Assembly: GCA_018822665.1 (NCBI GenBank)
Contig: JAHJJX010000029.1
Span: 1-64,000 of the forward strand
DNA from: a bacterium
GTDB taxonomy: Bacteria; Campylobacterota; Campylobacteria; Campylobacterales; Sulfurimonadaceae
Direction: 5' to 3'
DNA length: 64,000 bases
Position numbers and translations under genes: made by a program. Under the pieces are notes generated by a model. The model did not search any database, had not been told where the DNA came from, and saw only the letters and a program-made list of their open reading frames with translations. Every line of letters begins with the position of its first letter. The first letter of the stretch is position 1. Shown here piece by piece: positions 30,840 through 36,119 of the stretch.

Positions 30840-31610
30840 ATGAAACTAGATGAAGTTGAATTATTGGAAAAAATCGTATTTATACAGTCTTGCATTATTG
30901 AAGGGCATAATGTCAAGGCTATTTTACGTAAAGAAACTTCCTCTTTTAAAGAAAAAAGCGGGGCGGATGTTATAGCCCTGTGTATGGAAAATGAAAATTA
31001 TGTCAACATAGAATTAGTTCTAGAAGAGAAAAAACGATTTCTTAATTTGATGCGAAAGTATAAGCTCATGCCAAGACATATGGTACTGAGTAACTTTATG
31101 AAACAGTGCAATTCACGTTTTACGGGCTCGAAAAAATTTCTCACCATAGAAACACTTTATGATATTTTTCAAGGAACTCTTTCTAAGGCAAAATCACTTG
31201 CTTTTGAGCAAGAGATGAGCTTCAAAGAAGCCAAGATTTTTCCTTTACATAACAGACTTGGAAAAAAAATAGGTTTTGTTGTTTATTTTTTCGTTAAAGA
31301 TAAAAAGCCTTTGTATGATAATTTACCTGATTTAACGAGAGTTTTTGAAACATTAATTCTTCCTTTTTATGACAGCAACTTACGTTCTATGCATTCAAAA
31401 TGTGTGCAGGTAGATAGCAGAATGGGGATTTTAACAGAAAAAGAGAAGCAAATTGCTCATCGGGTTTTACATGGCAAAACCCATAAAGTGATAGCCTCGG
31501 AACTCGGCATTTCAATTAATACACTTAAGACGCATATGAAAAATATTTTTAGTAAATACGGAATAAACTCTAAAATGGAATTGCATAATAAAATTTTGGG
31601 AAATTTCTAA
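30840..31610 (+). CDS. LuxR-family response regulator-like transcription factor
   Basis: 256 residues. The C-terminal 65 residues form a LuxR/FixJ HTH: LTEKEKQIAHRVLHGKTHKVIASELGISINTLKTHMKNIFSKYG. The N-terminal 180 residues match no receiver or autoinducer domain that I recognise; the FKEAKIFPLHNRLGKKIGFVVYFF stretch looks like a PAS/GAF-like ligand domain, by impression only. It faces the leftward block of secreted and outer-membrane genes, and controlling that block is a context-based guess. Confidence 0.8.
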   Translation: MKLDEVELLEKIVFIQSCIIEGHNVKAILRKETSSFKEKSGADVIALCMENENYVNIELVLEEKKRFLNLMRKYKLMPRHMVLSNFMKQCNSRFTGSKKFLTIETLYDIFQGTLSKAKSLAFEQEMSFKEAKIFPLHNRLGKKIGFVVYFFVKDKKPLYDNLPDLTRVFETLILPFYDSNLRSMHSKCVQVDSRMGILTEKEKQIAHRVLHGKTHKVIASELGISINTLKTHMKNIFSKYGINSKMELHNKILGNF

Positions 31611-31622
31611 AAATATTTTGCG

Positions 31623-32033
31623 TTATTTTTTTCGACCTGCTTTATAGTCGATTTTCCACTCTTCGTTGAACTTTGAAAAATACATTTTTTTTGAATAACC
31701 GTCTTGGGCATAGCCGAGAGTGATGCGGTTTGTGCCTTTTGGCTCAAATGAAGTTATTTCAAGTTGATGCTCCCTTGAATTATTGAGTAAGTCTGCGCAA
31801 AGCATTGTTTCTACGCTCTTTAAAGATTGGGCATCATTTTCAATATTTTTGAGTAAAGTTTGAAAATCAGCCTCCCTAAAAGCACGCTTGAAACCCAATG
31901 ATTGCAAGGTAATCATATAAGACTCTCTTGTCATAAGATGCGAGAGTGACTTCAAATCTCCAAATTTCAGAGCATCATAAAAAAGTAAAAGAGACCTATG
32001 CAGAGTCTCTTTGGTGTTTTTGTTAATTTCCAA
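31623..32033 (-). CDS. Small NTF2-like protein, uncharacterised
   Basis: 136 residues, no signal peptide. The pattern of an N-terminal helix pair followed by strands (LEITSFEPKGTNRITLGYAQDG ... KMYFSKFNEEWKID) suggests an NTF2/SnoaL-like cone fold, a weak inference. It follows the DUF2202 gene by 24 bp and is probably co-transcribed with it. No catalytic residues can be assigned. Confidence 0.6.
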   Translation of the reverse strand: MEINKNTKETLHRSLLLFYDALKFGDLKSLSHLMTRESYMITLQSLGFKRAFREADFQTLLKNIENDAQSLKSVETMLCADLLNNSREHQLEITSFEPKGTNRITLGYAQDGYSKKMYFSKFNEEWKIDYKAGRKK

Positions 32034-32057: not shown

Positions 32058-32642
32058 TTAGGATTCTCTTGCTATCGCTTTTTCAAAAGCATCTAAGTGA
32101 TTGAGACTTCCCTCTTTTAAGTTGCTATATGTATTAACAACATCCAAAGGCATCCCCTCAGCTGCTTTTTCAAGATCATCAATATCTGTAATTTCGATTA
32201 AACGGCCAACCTTGAGTGCTTCAAGTAAAGAGACCTGACCTAACTCAATACATTGATTATATAACTCTTGCATACTTAAAAGTTCAAACTGTCCAATATA
32301 ATTATCATCAAGCGAAAGGTTCACTCCTGTTGTGTCAATTCCATAACGCTCGCAAAGAACTTGGGCAAAAAGGATATGTTCTTGTTCTGAAATCTGAATA
32401 TTCGCGAATGTACTCTCTTCTGTATATATCTTCCCTAAGGTAATATAAACATCCCTTGCAACTTTTTCCTCTTGGAATATAAAGAAAAGAGTGTCTTTTT
32501 GTTCCTCGCTTAACTCGACTGTAACACTCGAAGTAGTTTTCTTACCTCGCGCCGCAAATGCCGAAGAAGCGGCTACAACCGCACCTACACCTACTATTTT
32601 CATAAAACTTCTACGCTGAGCGTTTGTAATTATTGATCTCAT
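32058..32642 (-). CDS. Tat-exported DUF2202 protein (ferritin-like)
   Basis: 194 residues from the ATG at 32642, which has AGAGGT seven bases upstream; the 38-residue longer track ORF lacks that. The N terminus has a twin-arginine signal (QRRSFMK followed by VGVGAVVAASSAFA). The mature part shows DUF2202 features: FIFQEEKVARDVYITLG and FANIQISEQEHILFAQVLCERYG, with Glu/His residues placed as in ferritin-like diiron helices. Tat export suggests folding, perhaps with metal, before translocation. It sits beside cytochrome and outer-membrane genes. Confidence 0.85.
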   Translation of the reverse strand: MRSIITNAQRRSFMKIVGVGAVVAASSAFAARGKKTTSSVTVELSEEQKDTLFFIFQEEKVARDVYITLGKIYTEESTFANIQISEQEHILFAQVLCERYGIDTTGVNLSLDDNYIGQFELLSMQELYNQCIELGQVSLLEALKVGRLIEITDIDDLEKAAEGMPLDVVNTYSNLKEGSLNHLDAFEKAIARES

Positions 32643-32794: not shown

Positions 32795-33172
32795 TTAACG
32801 ACGACCGCTGCCGTTTCCGCTCCCACGGGTGTTATCTGATTGGTTGGAGCCAAAGCTTTTTTCTTTTTTGCCAGGACTAGAAGTGATACTACCTTCTTGC
32901 ATTGTGGCTGCGCCGCTTTGGTTTTGATATCGGTGCTGATTTTGGTTTTGCTCACCACTGGGTGCATTATCTTTGTATTGTTTTTGATACTGATTCTGGC
33001 TCTTATCCTGATAATTTTCTTGGGTCTTCACCTGTTTTTTTGGTTGAACCTCACCGCTGTTTTGAGTCTGCTCACTCAGCTGGTTATATAAGGGAGCGGG
33101 AACACTGTCCGCCGCCATGACACCGACACTTAAGAGTAAACATGCAGAGAAACTAAGTAGTAAATTTTTCAT
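32795..33172 (-). CDS. Secreted Q/N-rich low-complexity protein
   Basis: 125 residues with a clean Sec signal peptide (MKNLLLSFSACLLLSVGVMA). The mature chain is almost entirely low-complexity: Q/N/K-rich repeats such as NQYQKQYKDNAPSGEQNQNQ, then a G/S/R-rich tail ending GSGNGSGRR. Probably disordered in the periplasm or outside the cell. No family recognised. A strong terminator follows. The composition is unlike its neighbours. A role as a metal- or polymer-binding accessory to the nearby outer-membrane cytochromes is speculation. Confidence 0.7.
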   Translation of the reverse strand: MKNLLLSFSACLLLSVGVMAADSVPAPLYNQLSEQTQNSGEVQPKKQVKTQENYQDKSQNQYQKQYKDNAPSGEQNQNQHRYQNQSGAATMQEGSITSSPGKKEKSFGSNQSDNTRGSGNGSGRR

Positions 33173-33252: not shown

Positions 33253-34572
33253 TTAAAAAGCAAGGATTGCAGTCAGATAAACATCATAATAGTTGTCGAC
33301 TAAACCATTTTGAGGACGATTATATGTACACTCTGCATCAAAAGTAATATTTTGACGTAAAAGATAGTTGAATCCTAAAGAAAAAGCATTGTAGTCATAA
33401 TCTTTGATAAAGCCACCTGCAATAGCTTGAGTGTTTTCATTGATATAATTGAGGTAGGCAAATTTAAGACCAAAATTTGGAGAAACTGGATTCATTTGAA
33501 ACTCTACAGATTTGGCTTTATTCCCGGTTTGTTGCATACTAGGACTTGTAAGTAGATTTATCGGTTTAATATCAACACGATTATCGATAACATAACTGAT
33601 AGTCGCCATCATCATGACATTGTCTACTTTTCCTGTCATCTCAAAATCAAAACCATATCCCTCTTTATGAATATTGACAAGGGTTGCCCCTGTGTTAATT
33701 AGCCCTCCGTTTAAGCTTTGATTGCTTGCTTTGGCATCTCCATAGAGCCCAAAAGCGCCAATCATAAAGCTCCAATCATTTAGAGGCAGTGTGTACGCTA
33801 CCCTTGCAAAAGGAATTAAACTTTTTCCGGCATCGATACCTTCGTTATTTTGAGCCGGCACACTGGCTCCAACACTTGCAAAGAGATTGTCATCGCCATA
33901 ATAGAGCTGTAAACCTGTTGCTGGACCATTGCCGATTCCCGTTGCTTGGGCTGCATTGGTGCCATGAGAATTTTCAAACTGTTTCAGCGGTGCATTGAGA
34001 CCGGTATTGAAGTTCTCCATTCCAGAAAAAATACCATTGTTTTGTGTAGAATAAAGAGATACGCCCGTGTATCCATTGAGGGCTTCGTAGGCTAAAACAA
34101 CTTTTCCGCCAAAGAGGACATCATTCTCTTTGGATGGATCACCCGTTAAAGAAACAAGACCTCCAACATTTTCTGCCATGCGCCCTCCAAAGTAGAGACC
34201 GGAAGTTTCAAATACTTGCAGTTCTCCGCGCTGTGTTCCTATGATATCGGTATTCCCTGTATTTAACTTTTGGGTAGTTTGAACGTAGCGTGCTTTTAAA
34301 ACAGCGGAAACATTTAAAGTTGCAGGCAGACCAAGTGCAATTTCAGAGCCCTCGACCAAGGACTGCGTTTCACTTTTGGCATTGTAAAGCGTGTACCCAG
34401 AAAGAGCAAAATTACGGCCGTGATTATTCAACTTTTGCATATTCTGAACATGGCAGCTCATACAATCCTGACCAGTTTGACGAGAGAATCCAGGCAAAGC
34501 ATTGGCTGATTCCGGAAGCATAAAAAGTAAAACACTTGAAAATAAAAGTAAGTTCTTCATGGATGATTTCAT
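33253..34572 (-). CDS. Outer-membrane monoheme cytochrome fused to beta-barrel (Cyc2-like), copy B
   Basis: 439 residues. A signal peptide (cleavage near ANA|LPGF) is followed by GFSRQTGQDCMSCHVQNMQKLNNHGRNFALSGYTL, with a single c-heme site CMSCH at residues 37-41. The remaining 390 residues alternate short amphipathic strands and end in ...YLTAILAF with the terminal Phe of outer-membrane barrels. The RQTG-X2-C-X2-CH-...-L-X3-GR-F-...-GYT signature is, as I recall, that of Cyc2, the iron-oxidising fused cytochrome-porin. Its paralogue lies 15 bp upstream. The electron donor is unknown. Confidence 0.8.
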   Translation of the reverse strand: MKSSMKNLLLFSSVLLFMLPESANALPGFSRQTGQDCMSCHVQNMQKLNNHGRNFALSGYTLYNAKSETQSLVEGSEIALGLPATLNVSAVLKARYVQTTQKLNTGNTDIIGTQRGELQVFETSGLYFGGRMAENVGGLVSLTGDPSKENDVLFGGKVVLAYEALNGYTGVSLYSTQNNGIFSGMENFNTGLNAPLKQFENSHGTNAAQATGIGNGPATGLQLYYGDDNLFASVGASVPAQNNEGIDAGKSLIPFARVAYTLPLNDWSFMIGAFGLYGDAKASNQSLNGGLINTGATLVNIHKEGYGFDFEMTGKVDNVMMMATISYVIDNRVDIKPINLLTSPSMQQTGNKAKSVEFQMNPVSPNFGLKFAYLNYINENTQAIAGGFIKDYDYNAFSLGFNYLLRQNITFDAECTYNRPQNGLVDNYYDVYLTAILAF

Positions 34573-34587
34573 TAGATACCCCTGTTT

Positions 34588-35955
34588 TTAAAATGAGATT
34601 GTTAGCACTGTTAAAATATCAGCGTAATCTTTAATATCTTGTTTTTTCGGTTGAACCATAGACCCTTCCATGGTCAACATAATATTTTGGCGGAATGAAT
34701 AATCAAAACCGAGTGTGTACGCATTTTTGTCTTTGACATCAATTTTGTCGGGCTGGTAAGTATGAGGACCCTTGTCATCGACACTCATAAAGGCTATTTT
34801 GATACCGAGTGAATCTATCGGATACATTTCTAATTCAAGAGAGGAAGCTTCCATAGCCGAATCCGCAGGATCTCCGTAGATACTATCTTGTGGATTTATT
34901 GTAGAGATATAGTTCATCATAGAAGGACGATCTAAGGTGGTGTTGTTTTTAAGCACTGCATTGATTGTCAAAATAGTGTCCATTGATAAAACTTCCCCCT
35001 CTAATTGCAAATCAATACCATACGCTTCTTTTTTTGTTTTTACAAGAACTTGAGGCACCAAACCGGAGAGTGAAGGTTCATACACTGTATTGCTGGCCTT
35101 TGCTGAGCCATTAATACCATAAGCCCCGATGATGAGCCTTAGGTTTCCAATCGGCTGTTCGTAAGCAAGGCGCGCAAAAGGAATTAAATATTTTCCAATG
35201 TCGATTCCGTCACTGTTATGTATAGGTACATAGGCTCCAAGTGTTGCAAATAAGTTTTCACCTGAATAAAAAACCTGTAATCCGGTAGCCGCTCCGCTTG
35301 CCAAGTCGGCAGCCTGCGCCGCATTTGTGAGTTTATGATTTTCAAACTGGCGAAGCGGTTTGTAAAGTCCCGTGTTGTAAGTTTCCATACCGGTAAAGGG
35401 ACCATAGTTATTAGTGGAAAAAATAGAAAGACCCGCGTAGCCTTGCCCCATTTCATAGGATGCTGCGACTTTACCGCCGATAATAGCTTTGCCCTCTTTT
35501 TCGCGGAACTCTATAACTGTACCGATATTATCGGCCACGCGGCCGGCAAGATTGATAGTCGAAGTTTTGAAGATTTCATATACGCCTCGATTATTACTGA
35601 GATAATCTCCATTTTTTGCTTCTAAAACATCACCATTTCCGTTTACAACATCATAACCTTTGTCAAACCTGGCTTTGAGCATGAGAGACATATTGAGTAC
35701 AGAGGGAAGACTAAGACCGACATCATCACCGACGAGGAGAGATTGCGGACCGCTTTTTGTACTCATAGTATAAGCTGAATGGGCGAACTGACGCCCAAAA
35801 CTATTGAGTTTTGTTTGATTGCCTGCGTGACACATCATACATTCCAATCCTGTTTGCCTAGAAAAGGCAGGAATAGCATGCGCACTCTCAAGAAAAACAA
35901 ATAAAACTAAAAAATAAAAAAGCGGGGAATAGGGTTGTATTCGCTTCATAATCAC
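34588..35955 (-). CDS. Outer-membrane monoheme cytochrome fused to beta-barrel (Cyc2-like), copy A
   Basis: 455 residues, a diverged paralogue of the next gene. The signal peptide ends at SAHA|IPAF, then FSRQTGLECMMCHAGNQTKLNSFGRQFAHSAYTM, with heme site CMMCH at residues 39-43. The long strand-rich body shares block after block with copy B (GLYKPLRQFENHKLTNAAQAADLASGAATGLQ against GLNAPLKQFENSHGTNAAQATGIGNGPATGLQ) and ends in ...LTVLTISF. Secreted to the outer membrane. It is the first gene of the pair and divergent from a small periplasmic cytochrome c gene (164-bp gap). Confidence 0.8.
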   Translation of the reverse strand: MIMKRIQPYSPLFYFLVLFVFLESAHAIPAFSRQTGLECMMCHAGNQTKLNSFGRQFAHSAYTMSTKSGPQSLLVGDDVGLSLPSVLNMSLMLKARFDKGYDVVNGNGDVLEAKNGDYLSNNRGVYEIFKTSTINLAGRVADNIGTVIEFREKEGKAIIGGKVAASYEMGQGYAGLSIFSTNNYGPFTGMETYNTGLYKPLRQFENHKLTNAAQAADLASGAATGLQVFYSGENLFATLGAYVPIHNSDGIDIGKYLIPFARLAYEQPIGNLRLIIGAYGINGSAKASNTVYEPSLSGLVPQVLVKTKKEAYGIDLQLEGEVLSMDTILTINAVLKNNTTLDRPSMMNYISTINPQDSIYGDPADSAMEASSLELEMYPIDSLGIKIAFMSVDDKGPHTYQPDKIDVKDKNAYTLGFDYSFRQNIMLTMEGSMVQPKKQDIKDYADILTVLTISF

Positions 35956-36119
35956 TCTTTTGCGTAAGATTATATGCTAATTATACAATACAAAAAAATA
36001 AAATCAATCACACTAAAAGGTGAATTATTTAATTTTCTTGAATAATAAAAATTAAATTACATTTTAAGTTTAACTAATATAGACTTATACAAAAATATAA
36101 TAAGTGAAGGATTCAAAAA

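Follow-up and report, generated by a model that had tools for sequence, protein, structure and literature searches.

Tandem Cyc2-like cytochrome-barrel fusions in Sulfurimonadaceae share an operator-like element with a choice-of-anchor O lipoprotein: a putative regulated system for electron uptake

The window analyzed here, a stretch of 64,000 nucleotides from a Sulfurimonadaceae genome, contains two adjacent genes (cpA and cpB) that encode fusions of a single-heme cytochrome domain with a predicted 16-stranded barrel. The two genes belong to a module that is conserved in related genomes, and they share a palindromic element, at a nearly constant spacing from the -10 box, with the gene of a large choice-of-anchor O lipoprotein that accompanies them. 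On balance, we consider it fairly probable that cpA and cpB function as Cyc2-like conduits for electrons across the outer membrane, within a regulated uptake system. The features of the locus are collected in Table 1.

Table 1. Coordinates of the genes and promoter elements of the cpA-cpB module in the window.
Feature	Position	Strand	Remarks
LuxR/GerE-type transcriptional regulator	30840-31610	+	convergent with operon; GerE 7.7e-13; EpsA-like
136-aa conserved protein	31623-32033	-	last operon gene; kept in related loci
DUF2202 ferritin-like protein, Tat-type signal RRSFMK	32058-32642	-	listed ORF to 32753; PF09968 E=7.5e-29
Small exported Q/N-rich protein, Gly-rich C terminus	32795-33172	-	a small protein is here in most loci
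cpB, paralogous cytochrome-barrel fusion	33253-34572	-	15 bp downstream of cpA; 439 aa
cpA, Cyc2-like, predicted outer-membrane monoheme cytochrome-barrel fusion	34588-35949	-	operon gene 1; 455-aa ORF
cpA -10 box TATAAT	35980-35985	-	22 nt from palindrome; consensus match
Operator-like palindrome TCACACTAAAAGGTGA, 16 bp	36008-36023		cpA/cytochrome c intergenic region
Monoheme periplasmic cytochrome c, 99 aa	36120-36419	+	divergent; Pfam Cytochrom_C above cut-off

Both ORFs are intact. That of cpA is open up to an in-frame GTG at 35955 (34588-35955, minus strand), and translation likely starts at the ATG at 35949 and not at this GTG. The two products align with 40% identity over 450 aa (E=1e-106) and, judged by their sequences, are true paralogues. 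By inspection, each begins with a Sec-type AxA signal peptide (ending AHA or ANA), followed by the block [IL]P[AG]FSRQTGxxCMxCH...KLNxxGRxF with only one heme motif (CxxCH, present as CMSCH and CMMCH in the pair), and each ends in Phe. An earlier note on this DNA had described two adjacent paralogues with a signal peptide, FSRQTG-x2-CxxCH, GR-x-F and a C-terminal Phe, and this description is borne out by the ORFs and their identity. Its barrel-like region also held when modelled: AlphaFold2 models, for which a family alignment of 29 rows was used, have 16 long strands in each protein, at moderate confidence (pLDDT 71 and 73.5, pTM 0.73 and 0.76 for cpA and cpB, respectively), and the best Foldseek matches of these models in the PDB are 16-stranded porins (V. 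cholerae OmpT, VhChiP, PorB, Omp32 and OprO/OprP; E 1e-11 to 1e-8). Since the heme domain was modelled with low confidence (block pLDDT of about 42-66) and without heme, its exact seat at the barrel should be taken as presumptive. The most conserved barrel segment, around GMExYNTGLYxPxRQFENxxxTNAAQA, is found between strands 5 and 6, the position of the inward-folded loop 3 in general porins, and may carry a functional meaning. No Pfam or NCBIfam model matches the fusions, and a sequence search of the PDB returned nothing useful for them.

The relation of these proteins to Cyc2 can be considered in light of the definition given by Keffer et al., namely an AxPxFAR[QK][TY] motif, one CxxCH, PxL four residues on, a minimum length of 365 aa and a barrel of 16 strands (PMC8406198). 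Both window proteins contain the single CxxCH, are at least 365 aa long with a signal peptide and are modelled as 16-stranded barrels. The first motif, however, reads ALPGFSRQT and AIPAFSRQT, with Ser in place of Ala in both proteins, and the position of PxL is occupied by QKL in cpB and TKL in cpA. As orthologues of the same genus keep FAR or PKL (FARQT in loci L032 and L035 for cpA and L034 for cpB; PKL in several cpA/cpB orthologues), we consider FSR and QKL/TKL to be changes at homologous positions. The resemblance to Cyc2 pointed out in the earlier note is borne out by the motif block, the single heme site, the 16-strand barrel and the linked cytochrome c; the strict FAR and PxL motifs of the published definition are not present.

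In the careful tree, which comprised 66 rows with no named Mariprofundus, Gallionella or Leptospirillum reference among them, cpA and cpB fall in a 27-row clade (100/97) of Sulfurimonadaceae, Sulfurovaceae and two Pseudomonadota rows. In a genome scan with a closer alignment (A4), the broad 29-row alignment being too diverse for this purpose, the relatives of the pair that carry a name were MAGs of Sulfurimonas sp. and Sulfuricurvum sp., which puts the genome of the window in the Sulfurimonas/Sulfuricurvum group. The sister of this clade (16 rows, 97/91) contains FARQTGAACLSCHFQ-type fusions and several Campylobacterota fusions; the former occur in most genomes of one Pseudomonadota group, which we infer to be probably Gallionellaceae (Cluster 1). 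A Cluster 2/3-like clade, which includes named plasmid genes of Caballeronia, Paraburkholderia, Ideonella and Methylocystis, is separate from both (100/100). Because of the strict motif misses and this placement in the tree, we refer to cpA and cpB as Cyc2-like and not as Cyc2. The proteins are similar to Cyc2 of Acidithiobacillus, Mariprofundus and Gallionellaceae (Clusters 1-3) in the signal peptide, the AxPxFxRQT-CxxCH block, the 16-strand barrel, a length of over 400 aa and a linked periplasmic cytochrome c, but differ in having FSR for FAR and QKL/TKL for PxL, in forming a separate clade, in being a tandem pair, and in the co-regulated surface lipoprotein and ferritin-like protein of their system. 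To our knowledge, such partners have not been described for Cyc2.

Cyc2 homologues are already known in Campylobacterota. They were reported in 2025, within Cluster 1 and without evidence of function (PMC12442345), which weakens the earlier view that iron oxidation would be unexpected in a Sulfurimonas-like organism; Sulfurimonas pluma is without Cyc2 (PMC10066037). The reported proteins share the phylum and general architecture with those of the window. They are nested in Zetaproteobacteria sequences, whereas the window clade is, going by their description, sister to that group; the likeliest candidates for their counterparts here are other rows, e.g., L023 and L049.

Several other fusion loci were also noted. 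One genome that is probably Gallionellaceae contains two fusion copies of equal length with matching starts, ~2.2 kb apart (L158, G691:C314). Canonical FARQTG...FPxLT fusions of Sulfurimonadaceae (Cluster 2/3-like; L056, L059 and L060) are located in or beside a BtuF/FecCD-type ABC transporter operon, and another subclade (L042, L043, L045, L046 and L047) adjoins gyrA or lies close to it, in most cases together with genes for an ammonium transporter and P-II. A related subclade (L050:3202-10016, L051 and L055) adjoins a heavy-metal P-type ATPase, a possible copper link, and in L050 and L051 the neighbourhood also includes a multicopper oxidase and a DsbD-like protein.

The occurrence of cpA and cpB side by side is not a matter of chance, as six genomes of the genus, that of the window among them, carry the pair, with the same order in the other five. 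In these five, a divergent monoheme cytochrome c is also present, together with a LuxR/GerE-type regulator and the 136-aa protein nearby and, usually, the DUF2202 protein and the small exported protein; it should be considered that several neighbour genes were inferred from ORF calls without annotation and that the genome samples are draws and not complete sets. The divergent cytochrome c gene mentioned in the earlier note is present in the window, and its product is the presumed electron acceptor. Sulfurovum loci contain single fusions with homologues of the window cytochrome c, regulator, DUF2202 and 136-aa proteins, so that the association of the module spans Sulfurimonadaceae and Sulfurovaceae. 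In one further genome (G140; L041:6125-6745), cpA is cut to 206 aa and cpB is absent, with the cytochrome c, the operator and choice-of-anchor O kept; this is either a decaying locus or an assembly effect.

As the two genes are only 15 bp apart, in one operon behind one operator site, they are probably co-expressed. The suggestion that the duplication reflects two donors or conditions is not supported by this arrangement, and we rejected the idea of two genes serving two conditions on the grounds of the single operon and operator. The tree unites cpA with relatives present as single copies (95/81) and places cpB outside this group. The pair is, therefore, probably long-standing, and the duplication, as read from the tree, predates the sampled species.

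The DUF2202 family is one which we take to be ferritin-like. The window protein is well over the gathering cut-off of PF09968 (101 bits vs 22) and is homologous to MJ0754 (PDB 3q4o, E=1.6e-20), with which it shares the Pfam family and conserved E and ExxH positions in the alignment. Unlike MJ0754, it is predicted to be Tat-exported and is clustered with the presumed outer-membrane cytochromes. DUF2202 was found in 35 of 120 genomes of the genus, including members without fusions, which rules out that every DUF2202 gene belongs to the cpA/cpB system. In genomes without cpA (L166, L167, L168 and L173), a separate DUF2202 module was observed, which also comprises a two-component system and a further two small proteins that are exported. 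No function was found for DUF2202 in literature searches.

The cpA/cytochrome c intergenic regions contain a common imperfect palindrome, TCACACNNNNNGGTGA, which also precedes Sulfurovum fusion operons and, on other contigs, is located ~95-110 bp upstream of choice-of-anchor O genes. When 15 genomes (~35 Mb) were searched for TCACACNAWNRGGTGA, ten exact matches were obtained, of which five precede cpA and the other five choice-of-anchor O, with none elsewhere; no exact match was obtained in three genus genomes without cpA. It should be noted that the cpA matches are partly by construction, as the element was first seen there, while those before choice-of-anchor O are not. In nearly all promoters examined, the palindrome core is 22 nt from the -10 box, so that its centre would be near -41, where class II activators usually bind. 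No site with up to two mismatches was found before any of ~32 fusion loci outside the regulon. Within the regulon, the site is missing at G144 (cpA), L073 and L089, and degenerate, with two mismatches, at L083 and before choice-of-anchor O in the genome of the window (G000). As the LuxR-type gene and the site track each other, the LuxR-type protein is likely the regulator that acts at the palindrome.

The fusion is often adjoined, in relatives, by the gene of a large choice-of-anchor O lipoprotein (E=7.6e-209 in G141), the alternatives being choice-of-anchor F with a JDVT-CTERM tail and the MrtJ protease, or an exosortase. In the genome of the window, the choice-of-anchor O gene is unlinked, on another contig (G000:C34:8907-10856), and its product is far above the curated cut-off of the NF040591 choice-of-anchor O family (551.5 bits vs 125). 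The search for choice-of-anchor O covered 151 Sulfurimonadaceae genomes. It was found in eight of these, namely all seven with cpA (G000, G071, G097, G135, G140, G141 and G144) and G074, where it adjoins a fusion of the cpA subclade. The subclade is carried by 11 of the 151 genomes, and choice-of-anchor O is present in none of the 140 where the subclade was not found. If the genomes are treated as independent, which is not entirely true, the probability that these 11 would include all eight is ~3e-11. Two of the three subclade genomes that lack choice-of-anchor O contain choice-of-anchor F. In the phylum sample, choice-of-anchor O was present in 4 of 397 genomes, all with fusions, and in one genome of a distant family (G358) the two genes are adjacent. 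A search among known plasmids did not find choice-of-anchor O, and literature searches found no published function for choice-of-anchor proteins. The link between choice-of-anchor O and the cytochrome-porins is, therefore, one of co-occurrence, adjacency in relatives and a common operator.

We propose that cpA, cpB and choice-of-anchor O are most likely switched on together, with the LuxR-type protein as an activator bound near -41. In both fusions, heme would be attached to a small N-terminal c-type domain, located where a 16-stranded outer-membrane barrel opens to the periplasm. Electrons would move inward: a donor, either extracellular or within the barrel, would reduce the heme of cpA or cpB, and the periplasmic cytochrome c of the divergent gene would then pass the electrons on to the respiratory chain. 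The choice-of-anchor O lipoprotein may act as a partner outside the cell, where it would bind the donor or present it, and periplasmic iron may be bound by the Tat-exported DUF2202 protein. Because of the relation to Cyc2 and the ferritin-like partner, dissolved Fe(II) is favoured as the donor, and we consider it the likeliest, if somewhat short of an even chance, followed by reduced sulfur or sulfide minerals. Counting against this reading are the two divergent Cyc2 motif positions, the poorly modelled heme domain, the degenerate site before choice-of-anchor O in this genome and the missing one at cpA of G144, the DUF2202 genes in genus members without fusions, the copper-related genes beside a related subclade and the fact that the hosts are, by lineage, sulfur or hydrogen oxidisers.

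This lineage also bears on the donor. A donor in the form of reduced sulfur species or of metal-sulfide minerals at the cell surface, and not dissolved Fe(II), would agree with hosts that are sulfur oxidisers by lineage, with named carriers such as a Sulfuricurvum MAG that bears the label SulCav and a Sulfurovum MAG obtained in a thiosulfate bin, and with the unexplained overlap of Cyc2 with sulfur oxidisers (PMC12442345). Nonetheless, soluble sulfur species are handled by periplasmic Sox/Sqr, for which an outer-membrane heme is not needed, and the DUF2202 partner points to iron; we thus consider a sulfur donor rather improbable. The direction of transfer could also be the opposite, with the conduit reducing extracellular Mn(IV) or Fe(III), or feeding another cell or an electrode. 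Such export has a parallel in Ca. S. marisnigri, which couples sulfide oxidation to MnO2 reduction (PMC9122950; PMC11748539), yet the design with one heme in a narrow barrel is that of Cyc2, characterised for Fe2+ uptake at about +208 mV (PMC8406198), and the module is without a multiheme partner, making export quite unlikely. Least likely is a non-energetic role in metal detoxification, iron or heme acquisition, or redox sensing: although the operon includes a ferritin-like protein, the copper ATPase and multicopper oxidase beside the related subclade hint at metal homeostasis and canonical fusions adjoin FecCD/Btu-type ABC genes, the window module is without a transporter, its cytochrome c gene is kept across families and its operator is common to a large surface lipoprotein.

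For electron uptake through cpA and cpB, the common promoter switch and the strict partnership with the lipoprotein suggest a dedicated machine that takes electrons from outside the cell. That Cyc2-like porins and a surface lipoprotein (choice-of-anchor O, or F in relatives), in one LuxR-activated regulon, let Campylobacterota use Fe(II) or iron minerals as a donor is a tentative proposal, which we hold to be possible rather than probable. Cyc2 is usually treated as a stand-alone surface iron oxidase and as a marker gene. The lipoprotein partner and the operator provide a handle on the role of many Cyc2-like proteins outside the known iron oxidisers, and on whether iron or minerals serve as an electron source for Campylobacterota, which are dominant at many redox interfaces. 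They also place choice-of-anchor O/F proteins and exported DUF2202 proteins in a functional context for the first time.
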